Below are positions 4,456-19,727 of a DNA stretch of 46,492 nt, in pieces (the first letter of the stretch is position 1; every line of letters begins with the position of its first letter). Below the pieces are notes generated by a model. It saw nothing but the letters and a program-made list of their open reading frames with translations. It had not been told where the DNA came from and did not search any database. This DNA is from an uncultured Croceitalea sp. (GTDB lineage: Bacteria > Bacteroidota > Bacteroidia > Flavobacteriales > Flavobacteriaceae), in contig CALEYA010000046.1 of the NCBI GenBank assembly GCA_937926215.1, positions 1 to 46,492 on the forward strand, read 5' to 3'. A program made the translations under genes and the position numbers.

Positions 4456-6464
4456 TGGCCATCACCGAAAAACATATCATGAGTAGGCTTTACCTCATTG
4501 CAGGCGGACTTTTTCTGTTCGCTGTTGGGGTGGTGGTAAAGTTGGTGGACATCCAAATGGTGAAAGGCACCGAGTATAAAGAGCTTGCCACACGAAAAAT
4601 GGAAAAAATGTTTACCATAGAGCCTAATCGTGGTAACATCTATGCAGATGACGGTAGTCTTTTGGCCGCTTCGGTCGCTAAATATGAGATTCGTTTTGAT
4701 GCCAATACCGTAAAAGAGGAACATTGGCAAAAATATATGACCCCGCTTTGTGATTCCCTGGGCGTTCTCTTTAATAAACCTTCGTCCTATTATCGGCAAA
4801 TGCTTAGAAAAGCGCGTGCCAATAAAAACGGCTATAAGCTTATTGCCCGCAATGTAGGGTATTTGGAATATGCGAGAATGCGGAAGTTCCCACTTTTTAG
4901 ATTAGGGCCCAATAAAGGTGGATTTATTGAAAAGCATCGCGTAGTGCGGGATTATCCATTGGGTAAGATTGCCGCCCGTAGTATTGGGTATGAGCGTGTG
5001 GACGAGAAAGGACATTACACAAGAGTGGGCCTGGATGGTGCCTTTGGGGTAAACTATCTTAGGGGGCATGAGGGAAAACGCCTCAAACAAAAAAGTGCCG
5101 GGAGCCAATGGAAGCCAGTTGGTTTTGACAATATTGTGGAACCGCAAGACGGAAGCGATATCGTGACCACCATCAATACCAATATGCAAGATATTGCGCA
5201 TCATGCGCTGCTAAAGCAATTGGAATACTACAAGGCTGATCATGGTTGTGTGGTGGTGATGGAAACTAAGACCGGTGCTATAAAAGCAATTTCAAATCTC
5301 GGTCGCACCAAAGAAGGAAAATATTACGAGCGTCTAAACTATGCGGTTGGAGAATCCAGTGAACCGGGTTCCACCTTTAAATTAATGTCCATGGTGGCGG
5401 CACTTGAGGATCAAGTGTTGGATACCAGTACCGTAGTGGATACGGAAAAGGGCCGCTGGAAAATTTATGATCGTACGGTTAGGGATTCCAGATGGGGTGG
5501 TTATGGTGAGATTAGTATGGCCAAAGCATTTGCGGTGTCTTCCAATACCGCTTTTGCCAAAATGATTCATGAAAATTATAAGGAGAATCCAGAAGTTTAT
5601 GTAAAACGGCTTATGAATATGGGCTTGCATAAAGATTTGGACCTTCCTATCATAGGTGAAGGCAAACCGGTAATACGTTATCCTGGGGACAAAGGCTGGT
5701 CTGGAATTTCCTTGGCGTGGATGTCCCATGGCTATGAGGTTTCCATGACGCCTTTACAATTATTGACCTTTTATAATGCCATTGCCAATGATGGCGAAAT
5801 GGTACGTCCCCTGTTTATCAAACAGGCCAAGGTGGGTAATAAGGTAATCAAGGAATTTTATAAGGATGTGATCAATCCGTCCATATGTTCCAAGGAGACC
5901 TTGAACAAAGTGCAGCAACTTTTAAAGGATGTGGTGAAGAAAGACTACGGTACCGGTAGCGGACTGTACTCCAAGAATTTCTCCATGGCAGGCAAAACGG
6001 GAACCGCACAAAAGAACTATGTGACCAAAGACCCGGAAAAGCTGCAATACATTTCATCCTTTGCAGGCTATTTTCCTGCCGATAATCCCAAGTATTCCTG
6101 TATCGTGGTGATTCACGAGCCGGATAGGGAGGTCGGGATTTACGGTGCGGATGTTGCCGGGCCGGTATTTAAATCCTTGGCAGAGAAGATACATATTACC
6201 TCGCCAGTGGTGGACAAAGTAGTGCCGGAACATCCAAAAAAAGAACAGGTAGAGAATGCTTTTCAGAAGTATTACGGAATTGCCCAAAAACAACTTCCTA
6301 CCATGCCCAACCTAAAAGGAATGTGCGGTATGGATGCCATTGCCATTTTGGAAAACCTTGGCGTAAAAGTAGAGGTGAAGGGCAATGGTAAGGTAGAAAA
6401 GCAATCCGTTAAAGAAGGAACCAAGATTAACCAAGTAGATAAAATCGTCCTACAACTATCATGA
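4455..6464 (+). CDS. ftsI: Penicillin-binding protein / peptidoglycan D,D-transpeptidase FtsI with C-terminal PASTA domain
   Basis: EPGSTFKL (SxxK), SSNTAF (SxN), GKTGTAQ (KTG) motifs; C-terminal MPNLKGM...LENLGVKVEVKG PASTA-like. Confidence 0.93.
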   Translation: MAITEKHIMSRLYLIAGGLFLFAVGVVVKLVDIQMVKGTEYKELATRKMEKMFTIEPNRGNIYADDGSLLAASVAKYEIRFDANTVKEEHWQKYMTPLCDSLGVLFNKPSSYYRQMLRKARANKNGYKLIARNVGYLEYARMRKFPLFRLGPNKGGFIEKHRVVRDYPLGKIAARSIGYERVDEKGHYTRVGLDGAFGVNYLRGHEGKRLKQKSAGSQWKPVGFDNIVEPQDGSDIVTTINTNMQDIAHHALLKQLEYYKADHGCVVVMETKTGAIKAISNLGRTKEGKYYERLNYAVGESSEPGSTFKLMSMVAALEDQVLDTSTVVDTEKGRWKIYDRTVRDSRWGGYGEISMAKAFAVSSNTAFAKMIHENYKENPEVYVKRLMNMGLHKDLDLPIIGEGKPVIRYPGDKGWSGISLAWMSHGYEVSMTPLQLLTFYNAIANDGEMVRPLFIKQAKVGNKVIKEFYKDVINPSICSKETLNKVQQLLKDVVKKDYGTGSGLYSKNFSMAGKTGTAQKNYVTKDPEKLQYISSFAGYFPADNPKYSCIVVIHEPDREVGIYGADVAGPVFKSLAEKIHITSPVVDKVVPEHPKKEQVENAFQKYYGIAQKQLPTMPNLKGMCGMDAIAILENLGVKVEVKGNGKVEKQSVKEGTKINQVDKIVLQLS

Positions 6465-18374: not shown

Positions 18375-18827
18375 ATGGGTTTGCAAGAAAGCGTAATGAC
18401 AGAAATGAAAGCTGCTATGAAAGCTAAGGATACTGTGGCTTTGGAATCGTTGCGAGCTATAAAGTCAGCTATTTTATTGGCACAGACGGAAAAGGGCGGT
18501 GGCGATGGATTGTCTGAGGAAGAAGAAGTGAAATTGGTACAGAAACTAGTAAAGCAACGTAAAGATAGTGCTGCTATTTTTACGGAACAAGGCAGGGATG
18601 ACTTGGCAGGGCCGGAATTGGCACAAGTAGCTGTAATCGAAAAGTTTTTACCCGAGCAACTCACGGAAGAGGAAATTGAAAAAGTGGTGGTACAGACCAT
18701 TGACGCAACCGGAGCAACGGGAATGAAGGATATGGGTAAGGTAATGGGTATGGTCTCTAAGGAATTGGCAGGGCAAGCAGACGGAAAGACCATTTCCAGC
18801 ATAGTAAAGGCAAAATTAAGTTCATAA
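18375..18827 (+). CDS. GatB/YqeY domain-containing protein
   Basis: MGLQESVMTEMKAAMKAKDTVALESLRAIKSAI and C-terminal GMKDMGKVMGMV...ADGKTISSIVKAKL. Confidence 0.92.
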   Translation: MGLQESVMTEMKAAMKAKDTVALESLRAIKSAILLAQTEKGGGDGLSEEEEVKLVQKLVKQRKDSAAIFTEQGRDDLAGPELAQVAVIEKFLPEQLTEEEIEKVVVQTIDATGATGMKDMGKVMGMVSKELAGQADGKTISSIVKAKLSS

Positions 18828-18829
18828 AT

Positions 18830-18882
18830 AAATGGCCACGTAGCTCAGCTGAATACCTGCCTGCCGGCAGGCAGGGAGCACT
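18830..18882 (+). pseudogene. Truncated tRNA-Arg 5' half interrupted in the D-loop by a 20-bp palindrome
   Basis: AAATGGCCACGTAGCTCAGCTGAATA identical to 19131-19156, then CCTGCCTGCCGGCAGGCAGG, then GAGCACT (rest of D-stem) before homology ends. Confidence 0.85.
18856..18875. repeat. 20-bp perfect palindrome CCTGCCTGCCGGCAGGCAGG, copy 1
   Basis: Sequence equals its reverse complement; inserted between GAATA and GAGC of the tRNA D-arm. Confidence 0.95.
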
Positions 18883-18890
18883 TTAAAAGT

Positions 18891-19157
18891 ATGATATATT
18901 GTTTTTATGCTTTAAGGAGTGAGAAAGATGGACGCATTTACAAAGGGATTTCGAAAGATGTGGATCAACGTTTGAAATGGCATAATGAGGGTAAGACCAA
19001 ATCGACTAGAGGGTATCGTCCTTGGAATTTGGTTTATATTGAAAAAGTAGGCAGTCTTGATACTGCCTTGTCAAAAGAAAAGTTTTATAAGTCCGGTATT
19101 GGACGTGAAATATTGAAAGAATTAATTAAAAAATGGCCACGTAGCTCAGCTGAATAG
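18891..19157 (+). CDS. Stand-alone GIY-YIG nuclease (YhbQ/URI-like)
   Basis: MIYCFYALRSEKDGRIYKGISKDVDQRLKWHNEGKTKSTRGYRPWNLVYIE...ALSKEKFYKSG: FYA...YKG version of GIY...YIG, conserved R and E. Last 23 nt overlap the tRNA. Confidence 0.88.
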   Translation: MIYCFYALRSEKDGRIYKGISKDVDQRLKWHNEGKTKSTRGYRPWNLVYIEKVGSLDTALSKEKFYKSGIGREILKELIKKWPRSSAE

Positions 19158-19208
19158 AGCACTGGATTTCGGCTCCAGCGGTCGGGGGTTTGAATCCCTC
19201 CGTGGTCA
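19135..19208 (+). tRNA. tRNA-Arg, anticodon TCG (19169-19171)
   Basis: Cloverleaf: acceptor GGCCACG/CGTGGTC, D-stem GCTC/GAGC, anticodon stem CTGGA/TCCAG with loop TTTCGGC, T-stem GGGGG/CCCTC with loop TTTGAAT, discriminator A; CCA not encoded. Confidence 0.93.
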
Positions 19209-19214
19209 CTACAC

Positions 19215-19247
19215 AGAGGCTGTCTAAAAAGGCAGCCTCTTTTTTTT
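19215..19247 (+). terminator. Rho-independent terminator downstream of tRNA-Arg
   Basis: AGAGGCTG / CAGCCTCT stem followed by a run of T. Confidence 0.85.
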
Positions 19248-19313
19248 GGTTTAGTTGGAAATAGGATTTTAAATTATACTTGGTTTATGATTACCATACC
19301 TGTCTGTTTTCAA

Positions 19314-19393
19314 CTGAATACCTGCCTGCCGGCAGGCAGGGAGCACTGGATTTCGGCTCCAGCGGTCGGGGGTTTGAATCCCTCCGTGGTCAC
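19314..19393 (+). pseudogene. Truncated tRNA-Arg 3' part, D-loop interrupted by the same palindrome
   Basis: CTGAATA + CCTGCCTGCCGGCAGGCAGG + GAGCACTGGATTTCGGCTCCAGCGGTCGGGGGTTTGAATCCCTCCGTGGTCAC; the 53-nt 3' part is identical to 19157-19209. Confidence 0.9.
19321..19340. repeat. 20-bp perfect palindrome CCTGCCTGCCGGCAGGCAGG, copy 2
   Basis: Identical to 18856-18875, in the identical D-loop context; extends to a 34-bp direct repeat (18849-18882 and 19314-19347). Confidence 0.95.
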
Positions 19394-19427
19394 GAATAAA
19401 TAAAAAAACTCTGTGTCAAATCAAGCT

Positions 19428-19462
19428 CGCTTGAATTTGTAATCAGGGTTTTTTTATTTTCA
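19428..19462 (+). repeat. 35-bp direct repeat copy A
   Basis: CGCTTGAATTTGTAATCAGGGTTTTTTTATTTTCA; 34/35 identical to 19527-19561. Confidence 0.85.
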
Positions 19463-19526
19463 AAGCGGAGCTTTGTAGGGAAAGACGAAGTCAATCCCTG
19501 AATAAACTAAGATTGATTTGAGCGTT

Positions 19527-19561
19527 CGCTTGAATTTGTAATCAGGGCTTTTTTATTTTCA
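19527..19561 (+). repeat. 35-bp direct repeat copy B
   Basis: CGCTTGAATTTGTAATCAGGGCTTTTTTATTTTCA. Confidence 0.85.
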
Positions 19562-19727
19562 GCACAAAGCGTTTTTTGGGAAAAAGGAGTATTCCAGTTA
19601 ATGTTCTTTTTTGGTATTCTTTTGTCTTCTAATCGGAGAATCAGAACTATTGCCAGTACCCGTTTACCTTTCCCTTAGTTACTTTGCCAGTTTTCATACG
19701 GTCTGGTGGCAATATAAGTATGCTTAC

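Follow-up and report, generated by a model that had tools for sequence, protein, structure and literature searches.

In this study, a window of 46,492 nucleotides from an uncultured Croceitalea sp. (the whole stretch of DNA analysed) was investigated, and the arrangement observed at its tRNA-Arg(TCG) gene is probably that of a minimal, homing-type selfish element, in which a free-standing GIY-YIG nuclease gene inserts in a tRNA gene and regenerates its target. The element is about 300-465 bp long and holds one ORF of 80-90 codons, which has an intact tRNA on one side and, on the other, a broken duplicate of that tRNA, usually with a palindrome. As judged from the sequences compared, the predicted nuclease, arriving on foreign DNA, would break an element-free tRNA gene, and the break would be repaired on the element by recombination via the tRNA halves. 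Since the element would bring along a duplicate of the displaced tRNA part, an intact tRNA would be rebuilt beside the dead remnant, and the host would retain a working tRNA. The same trick, with one enzyme lineage per tRNA kind, appears in more than 100 bacterial genomes. The original prediction, which read the window locus as a mobile cassette that supplies an intact copy of its own target, is supported in substance by our sequence comparisons.

The window locus reads, from left to right on the forward strand, yqeY, a 22-nt tRNA 5' part, a palindrome, 7 nt of tRNA, the GIY-YIG ORF, the intact tRNA, a hairpin, and a 5'-incomplete tRNA-Arg with a palindrome in its D-loop. The yqeY gene (18375-18827; Pfam YqeY PF09424, 154 bits; syntenic in relatives) lies outside the element and serves as the locus marker. 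The left tRNA-Arg remnant, comprising the 5' 22 nt up to the D-loop (18834-18855), is identical to 19135-19156 and stands where empty sites have the intact tRNA. It is followed at the D-loop junction by the perfect 20-nt palindrome CCTGCCTGCCGGCAGGCAGG (18856-18875), which recurs at other tRNA remnants, and by GAGCACT (18876-18882), 7 nt of tRNA sequence that match 19157-19163; in relatives, the corresponding tRNA stretch measures about 6-22 nt. The nuclease ORF of 88 aa (18891-19157), with a single predicted catalytic domain, has its stop codon within the single intact, restored tRNA-Arg(TCG) (19135-19209; ARAGORN; Rfam tRNA, 61.8 bits), and a terminator-like hairpin, GAGGCTG..CAGCCTC-T8, was read from the sequence 3' of this tRNA (19216-19247). 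Farther right come TCAACTGAATA, the window-specific start of the right-hand remnant (19310-19320), a second copy of the palindrome (19321-19340), and a perfect second copy of the 53-nt 3' part of the tRNA-Arg (19341-19393, identical to 19157-19209), after which the ancestral downstream flank GAATAAAT... matches the empty sites of relatives. Two direct repeats span these parts, namely the 26-bp AAATGGCCACGTAGCTCAGCTGAATA at 18830-18855 and 19131-19156 (spacing 301) and the 34-bp CTGAATA-CCTGCCTGCCGGCAGGCAGG-GAGCACT at 18849-18882 and 19314-19347 (spacing 465), the latter extending to 38 nt if one mismatch is allowed. The repeats, palindrome, ORF and intact tRNA thus lie where they had been placed before, and both earlier "deletion" readings, by which removal of either repeat unit leaves one tRNA-Arg, are textually right.

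The exact 20-nt palindrome has four copies in the 3.2-Mb genome, all four inside tRNA remnants, and the arrangement also recurs in relatives; it is thus not due to chance. The 3' half of tRNA-Arg(TCG) was found in the genome only at the intact copy and the remnant (the assembly is 92% complete), so the restored tRNA is apparently the sole tRNA-Arg(TCG) of this genome. No Rfam intron match indicating a group I intron was obtained in 18600-19600, and the nuclease is the only recognisable ORF in the unit, with no integrase of the kind that marks tyrosine-recombinase integrative elements. Downstream of the tRNA-Arg, at 19398-19590 of the window, we also observed a long inverted repeat, AAATAAAAAAACTCTG..CAGGGTTTTTTTATTT, around TCAAATCAAGCTCGCTTGAATTTG, and 99 bp farther on a direct repeat of 78% identity; nested hairpins of a similar kind lie 3' of tRNA-Arg at four other loci (L013, L026, L032 and L052).

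The order yqeY to tRNA-Arg(TCG) is conserved across Flavobacteriaceae, and the empty allele, with a single intact tRNA, was found at this locus in four congeners (G002, G003, G005 and G007) and in most other genera. These empty-site alleles at the orthologous locus bear out the earlier mobile-element reading. Filled sites were detected in five genomes, namely the window genome (G000), G001, G004 (Croceitalea dokdonensis), G025 and G026, with two tandem units in G025, and the presence of the element among congeners is patchy. In all the filled sites, the tRNA 5' part stops at one common position in the D-loop, and then come a palindrome, about 6-16 nt of tRNA, the ORF and the intact tRNA. The palindromes differ among these sites (CCTGCCTGCCGGCAGGCAGG, CCTGACTGCCGGCAGGCAGG, CCCGCCCGTACC...GGGCGGG and CCTGCCGGCCGGCAGGCAGGCAGG), and the element proteins of G000 and G001 share only about 47% identity, suggesting that the insertions at this D-loop position were separate events. 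The palindrome copy on the right of the window locus (19310-19393) is absent at the same locus of relatives, and it is therefore secondary and outside the common plan; the second, two-palindrome unit of the original prediction is present in the window but peculiar to it.

The restored tRNA has the sequence of the empty-allele tRNA, and no sequence basis for its protection from cutting was seen, so the rule of homing that insertion destroys the target does not obviously hold here. A visibly foreign tRNA half, the clinching evidence in Allomyces mtDNA, was not seen among the elements compared. A foreign origin of the restored half was considered at tRNA-Phe, where alleles differ between filled and empty congeners; as the displaced remnants carry the allele of the restored copy, no clearly foreign part emerged, and the comparison speaks neither for nor against it.

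The 88-aa product matches the Pfam GIY-YIG family PF01541 with 51.9 bits (cut-off 22.6) and no other Pfam family, and residues Y6, Y17, G19, R27, H31 and E63 are invariant in 24 relatives. The AF2 model of the product (pLDDT 95.7) is a bare GIY-YIG domain; among solved structures it comes nearest to UPF0213 BH0048 and Slx1 (E 9e-4, rmsd 1.5 A), then to I-TevI; the window protein accordingly has the domain, the catalytic Tyr/Tyr/Arg/Glu and the fold of the GIY-YIG superfamily. Ka is 0.19 and Ks 2.5 between the window ORF and a Croceitalea homologue, and Ka lies well below Ks for most element-protein pairs compared, indicating that the nuclease ORF is under purifying selection. The PHROGs homing-endonuclease families gave weak matches to about half of the clade, NCBIfam has no family for the window protein, a tblastn search with it against 50,697 phage records returned no match, and a phage or good plasmid vehicle for the element was looked for and none was found, which weighs against the homing-type reading.

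Six small GIY-YIG ORFs were detected in the window genome. Besides the window ORF, three adjoin an intact tRNA (Met, Pro and Met) and one lies in a tRNA-Asp remnant, mostly with palindrome-bearing remnants, and the sixth (L005) belongs to a different clade. Further copies of nuclease plus palindrome at tRNAs, which had been anticipated from the window, are thus present in its own genome and in many others. Protein similarity gave ten loci in named genomes, from Croceitalea, from one bin each of Chitinophaga and Omnitrophota, and from several candidate-phyla bins, and every one of the ten is next to a tRNA gene or a tRNA remnant. In a tree built only from the sequences of 108 small GIY-YIG proteins of relatives, two clades were recognized with support 95; most members of the first are tRNA-adjacent or in arrays beside a tRNA, against 0 of 55 near a tRNA in the other. 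In a larger set, chosen by similarity to known members and not at random, 108 of the 189 proteins of the tRNA clade are encoded no more than 150 nt from a tRNA on their own strand, with no antisense case, compared with 1 of 61 in the sister clade. The tRNA clade adjoins genes of about 17 isotypes, and within the candidate phylum sampled, 23 of 32 members lie at most 1 kb from a same-strand tRNA or tmRNA, again with none antisense. At E <= 1e-10, a threshold that possibly admits some members of the neighbouring clade, matches were obtained in 159 of the 247 sampled Bacteroidota genomes (about 100 at E <= 1e-20) and in 137 of the 191 genomes of the sampled candidate phylum, with up to 21 per genome. 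These genomes are mostly drafts and metagenome bins, and repeats of such kind are where assemblies fail.

The tRNA isotype follows the protein tree, with 31 changes on the tree of 84 proteins compared with a shuffled mean of 62 (minimum 55). When the nearest protein was sought only in a different host family, which removes host kinship, the isotype was the same in 46 of 101 cases, against 8.3 in shuffled data (maximum 18 in 500 shuffles), which indicates that lineages keep one tRNA kind across families; a few of the "different family" pairs are actually related, owing to unmatched names and codes, and the picture is unchanged. Such fidelity is expected under a target-specific nuclease, and equally if the tRNA part of the element guides recombination. 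An ordinary tandem tRNA duplication followed by decay, with a resident nuclease gene caught between the copies by chance, would agree with the near identity of remnants and intact copies and with the ability of arrays to grow by unequal exchange, but it fails to explain one protein clade at about 17 isotypes with strict co-orientation, isotype-specific lineages, a junction palindrome and empty sites, and it is hardly credible as the origin of these loci.

Two layouts of the element were recognized. In type U, the layout of the window, a 5' tRNA remnant with palindrome precedes the ORF and the intact tRNA, while type D begins with the intact tRNA and its terminator, continues with the ORF, and ends in a palindrome-bearing 3' tRNA remnant that has a terminator of its own. 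An automatic search located an insert-bearing tRNA remnant in 101 of 113 ORF-tRNA pairs, of which 84 were kept once they had been inspected. In 45 of these 84 inserts, there was a perfect inverted repeat whose arms measured at least 7, compared with 1.5% of shuffled sequences and 4.5% of random windows, and a minority of remnants has no clear palindrome. The insertion points of type U fall at tRNA positions 20-23, in the D-loop, in 23 of 37 cases, and those of type D range from the D arm through the T arm, with the anticodon arm and variable region among the sites used. The junction at a single D-loop point, as first proposed, stands for every filled tRNA-Arg site, and the nuclease may cut or recognise the tRNA D-arm, as was proposed with it, but members of the family use several sites, of which the D-loop is just the most frequent. 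Between the remnant and the tRNA half that the element carries, the sequence is mostly the same.

The units also occur in tandem, with as many as eight in one array and 82-99% identity where measured, and many contigs end in arrays. They may arise by repeated insertion or by unequal exchange at the restored copy. Arrays would also suit a host or phage-defence role, in which the unit would raise tRNA dosage or repair tRNA genes that had been damaged, as in the case of SegB and phage T6, given that SegB drives tandem amplification of tRNA plus segB according to the excerpts of PMC13096335; but the arrays examined multiply the ORF and the dead remnant, not the intact tRNA, and this role, which also sits badly with the patchy presence among congeners, is very unlikely. 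Under the homing-type reading, loss of the ORF would leave scars. In the window genome, a tRNA-Asn remnant (L001) and tRNA-Thr remnants (L004, with several 3' fragments in a row) bear palindromes without a nuclease ORF and look like scars or non-autonomous copies, and downstream of tRNA-Phe (L319, G000:C118) there is a decayed 3' fragment of this tRNA that has no ORF but a duplicated terminator, apparently an old scar. The sole tRNA-Leu(CAA) found in congener G007 (L106 / L265, G007:C162) has a 20-nt D-loop palindrome but lacks nothing else; either the insertion is tolerated by this essential tRNA, or the assembly is chimeric here, the contigs being repeat-rich and draft. Moreover, palindromes of 32 nt in tRNA-Ala D-loops are 31/32 identical between two phyla, namely CCCGCCCGAACGTACCGTTCGGTACGGGCGGG and CCCGCCCGAACGTACCGTCCGGTACGGGCGGG, from a Doudnabacteria bin (L192, tRNA-Ala TGC) and a member of Flavobacteriaceae (L228, tRNA-Ala GGC).

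Some members of the clade sit at other genes. Two (L069 and L234) are found at the start of an NAD-dependent epimerase-like gene, a name that rests on its GGAGFIG motif; the displaced piece ends ...TGGAGF or ...TGGAGFI within the motif GGAGFI, the gene start is rebuilt behind the ORF (MNILVTGGAGFIGSNL...), and the junction of L234, CGGGATTTATCCCG, is again a hairpin. Four others (L114, L189, L200 and L294) adjoin tmRNA genes, with remnants of the tmRNA 3' end in L189 and L200. These cases indicate that the logic is to rebuild the interrupted gene and is not peculiar to tRNAs.

Plain homing does not require a palindrome, and in other genomes the palindrome also occurs away from tRNAs, both of which count against the homing reading; as a guess, it might kill the remnant as a tRNA and as a target, or be bound by the nuclease. 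Alternatively, the palindrome itself could be the active unit, with a structure-specific, Slx1-like nuclease cutting the hairpin or cruciform at its cognate palindrome and the break leading to copying of the palindrome, the ORF and neighbouring DNA, so that tRNAs would be incidental and selection would keep the cases with a spare tRNA. The folds of UPF0213 BH0048 and Slx1, closer to the model than I-TevI, agree with this, and so does the palindrome class, which tracks the 84-protein tree (25 changes against a shuffled mean of 48 and minimum of 40). Flavobacteriaceae and two bins, one of Chitinophaga and one of Parcubacteria, have the same 20-mer at tRNAs with proteins only about 50% identical, and all 21 genomes with this 20-mer hold clade members compared with 138 of 226 without it (Fisher 7e-5, confounded by taxonomy). 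The ORF-less, palindrome-bearing remnants (L001 and L004) and the position of the sister clade between REP-like repeats fit as well. Isotype-specific lineages, by contrast, are unexpected if tRNAs are incidental, a clear palindrome is missing from that minority of remnants, and dispersed palindrome copies show no preference for hairpin loops. We regard this palindrome-centred explanation as unlikely, yet it stays alive through the Slx1-like fold, the conservation of the palindrome across phyla and the link between 20-mer and clade. With regard to the palindromes themselves, two generalizations were rejected: an exclusive link to tRNAs, as the palindrome also lies away from tRNAs in genomes other than that of the window, and a general insertion into hairpin loops, as none of 44 dispersed copies had an enclosing stem of at least 6.

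Small GIY-YIG ORFs of the sister ("N") clade are not located at tRNAs but are flanked by copies of REP-like repeats. At its locus in the window genome (L005:1381-1912, G000:C132), an 88-nt repeat has three copies in the genome, two flanking the ORF (G000:C132:4631-4718 and 5075-5162) and one solo (C157:18879-18966). Among 60 sister-clade loci, flanking repeats of at least 35 bits were direct at 31 and inverted at 15, against 5 and 3 of 51 controls. It is tentatively possible that short palindromes and small GIY-YIG nucleases belong together in a single, general system of mobilisation in bacteria, in which each nuclease lineage acts on its cognate palindrome; such a system would parallel RAYT/REP and be active across Bacteroidota and candidate phyla. 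As part of this tentative joint reading, one clade might have become a specialist that colonises and rebuilds genes for tRNA, tmRNA and now and then a protein, and the sister clade might spread REP-like intergenic repeats.

If the homing-type reading is right, the element would be among the smallest selfish elements known and very common, and would show a parasite living in essential single-copy tRNA genes by bringing the missing piece. Many tRNA fragments, tandem ORFs for small nucleases and breaks in assemblies that are so far unexplained in these groups could be put down to it, and it would suggest a source of palindromic repeats in bacteria without RAYTs and offer a large natural set of nucleases with different tRNA-gene targets for the study of how GIY-YIG specificity evolves.

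With reference to known systems, REP/RAYT resembles the element in that a small nuclease gene goes together with short palindromes that are dispersed and also occur solo, but RAYTs are HUH tyrosine transposases, and the protein found here is a GIY-YIG nuclease and not an HUH (Y1) transposase as in RAYT/REP and IS200/IS605. Integrative elements at tRNA genes likewise keep the tRNA whole, the element bringing the missing part; unlike them, the present element has no integrase, is only about 300-465 bp with a single ORF, and renews 5' as well as 3' parts. The UPF0213/YhbQ-type and Slx1 nucleases, with a single GIY-YIG domain, are closest to the window protein in fold and sequence; they are host proteins, unlike the element, and no report of their mobility or association with tRNA genes was found. 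In the open-access papers searched, no prior description of the element was found, which is not proof of novelty.

Closer parallels are the mobile ORFs (mORFs) with C-terminal duplication of fungal mitochondria, known from atp6 of Allomyces macrogynus and from atp6, atp9, cox2 and nad3 of Glomus, which regenerate the gene they interrupt and of which the Glomus atp9 mORF is a GIY-YIG (PMC3630166). As in our element, a free-standing endonuclease ORF lies between the regenerated gene part and the displaced native part, the host gene is functional, and element-less alleles exist (PMC3630166). Our loci share the duplicated gene part with one copy rebuilt, one displaced and the ORF between, and L069 and L234 extend this to protein genes. 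The mORFs differ in that they target protein genes of mitochondria and bring in a part whose foreign origin is visible (PMC3630166), whereas the element occupies bacterial chromosomal tRNA genes (also tmRNA and, twice, the epimerase gene), has 80-90 codons and a junction palindrome, and renews the 5' or the 3' part. SegB of phages T4/T6, according to the excerpts of PMC13096335 (original study PMC2330249), is a free-standing GIY-YIG homing endonuclease encoded among tRNA genes, with tandem arrays of nuclease and tRNA and homologues near many isotypes, and the element is similar in its insertion at or near the target, with element-free alleles in one genus, and in the tRNA association of its clade. 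SegB cleaves inside tRNA genes (same excerpts), an activity that we infer for the element. SegB resides in phages and not in chromosomes, and those excerpts describe neither a palindrome-bearing tRNA remnant nor regeneration of the target. By analogy, the element may be seen as uniting the mORF and SegB ideas in bacterial chromosomes and adding to them a palindrome at the junction.
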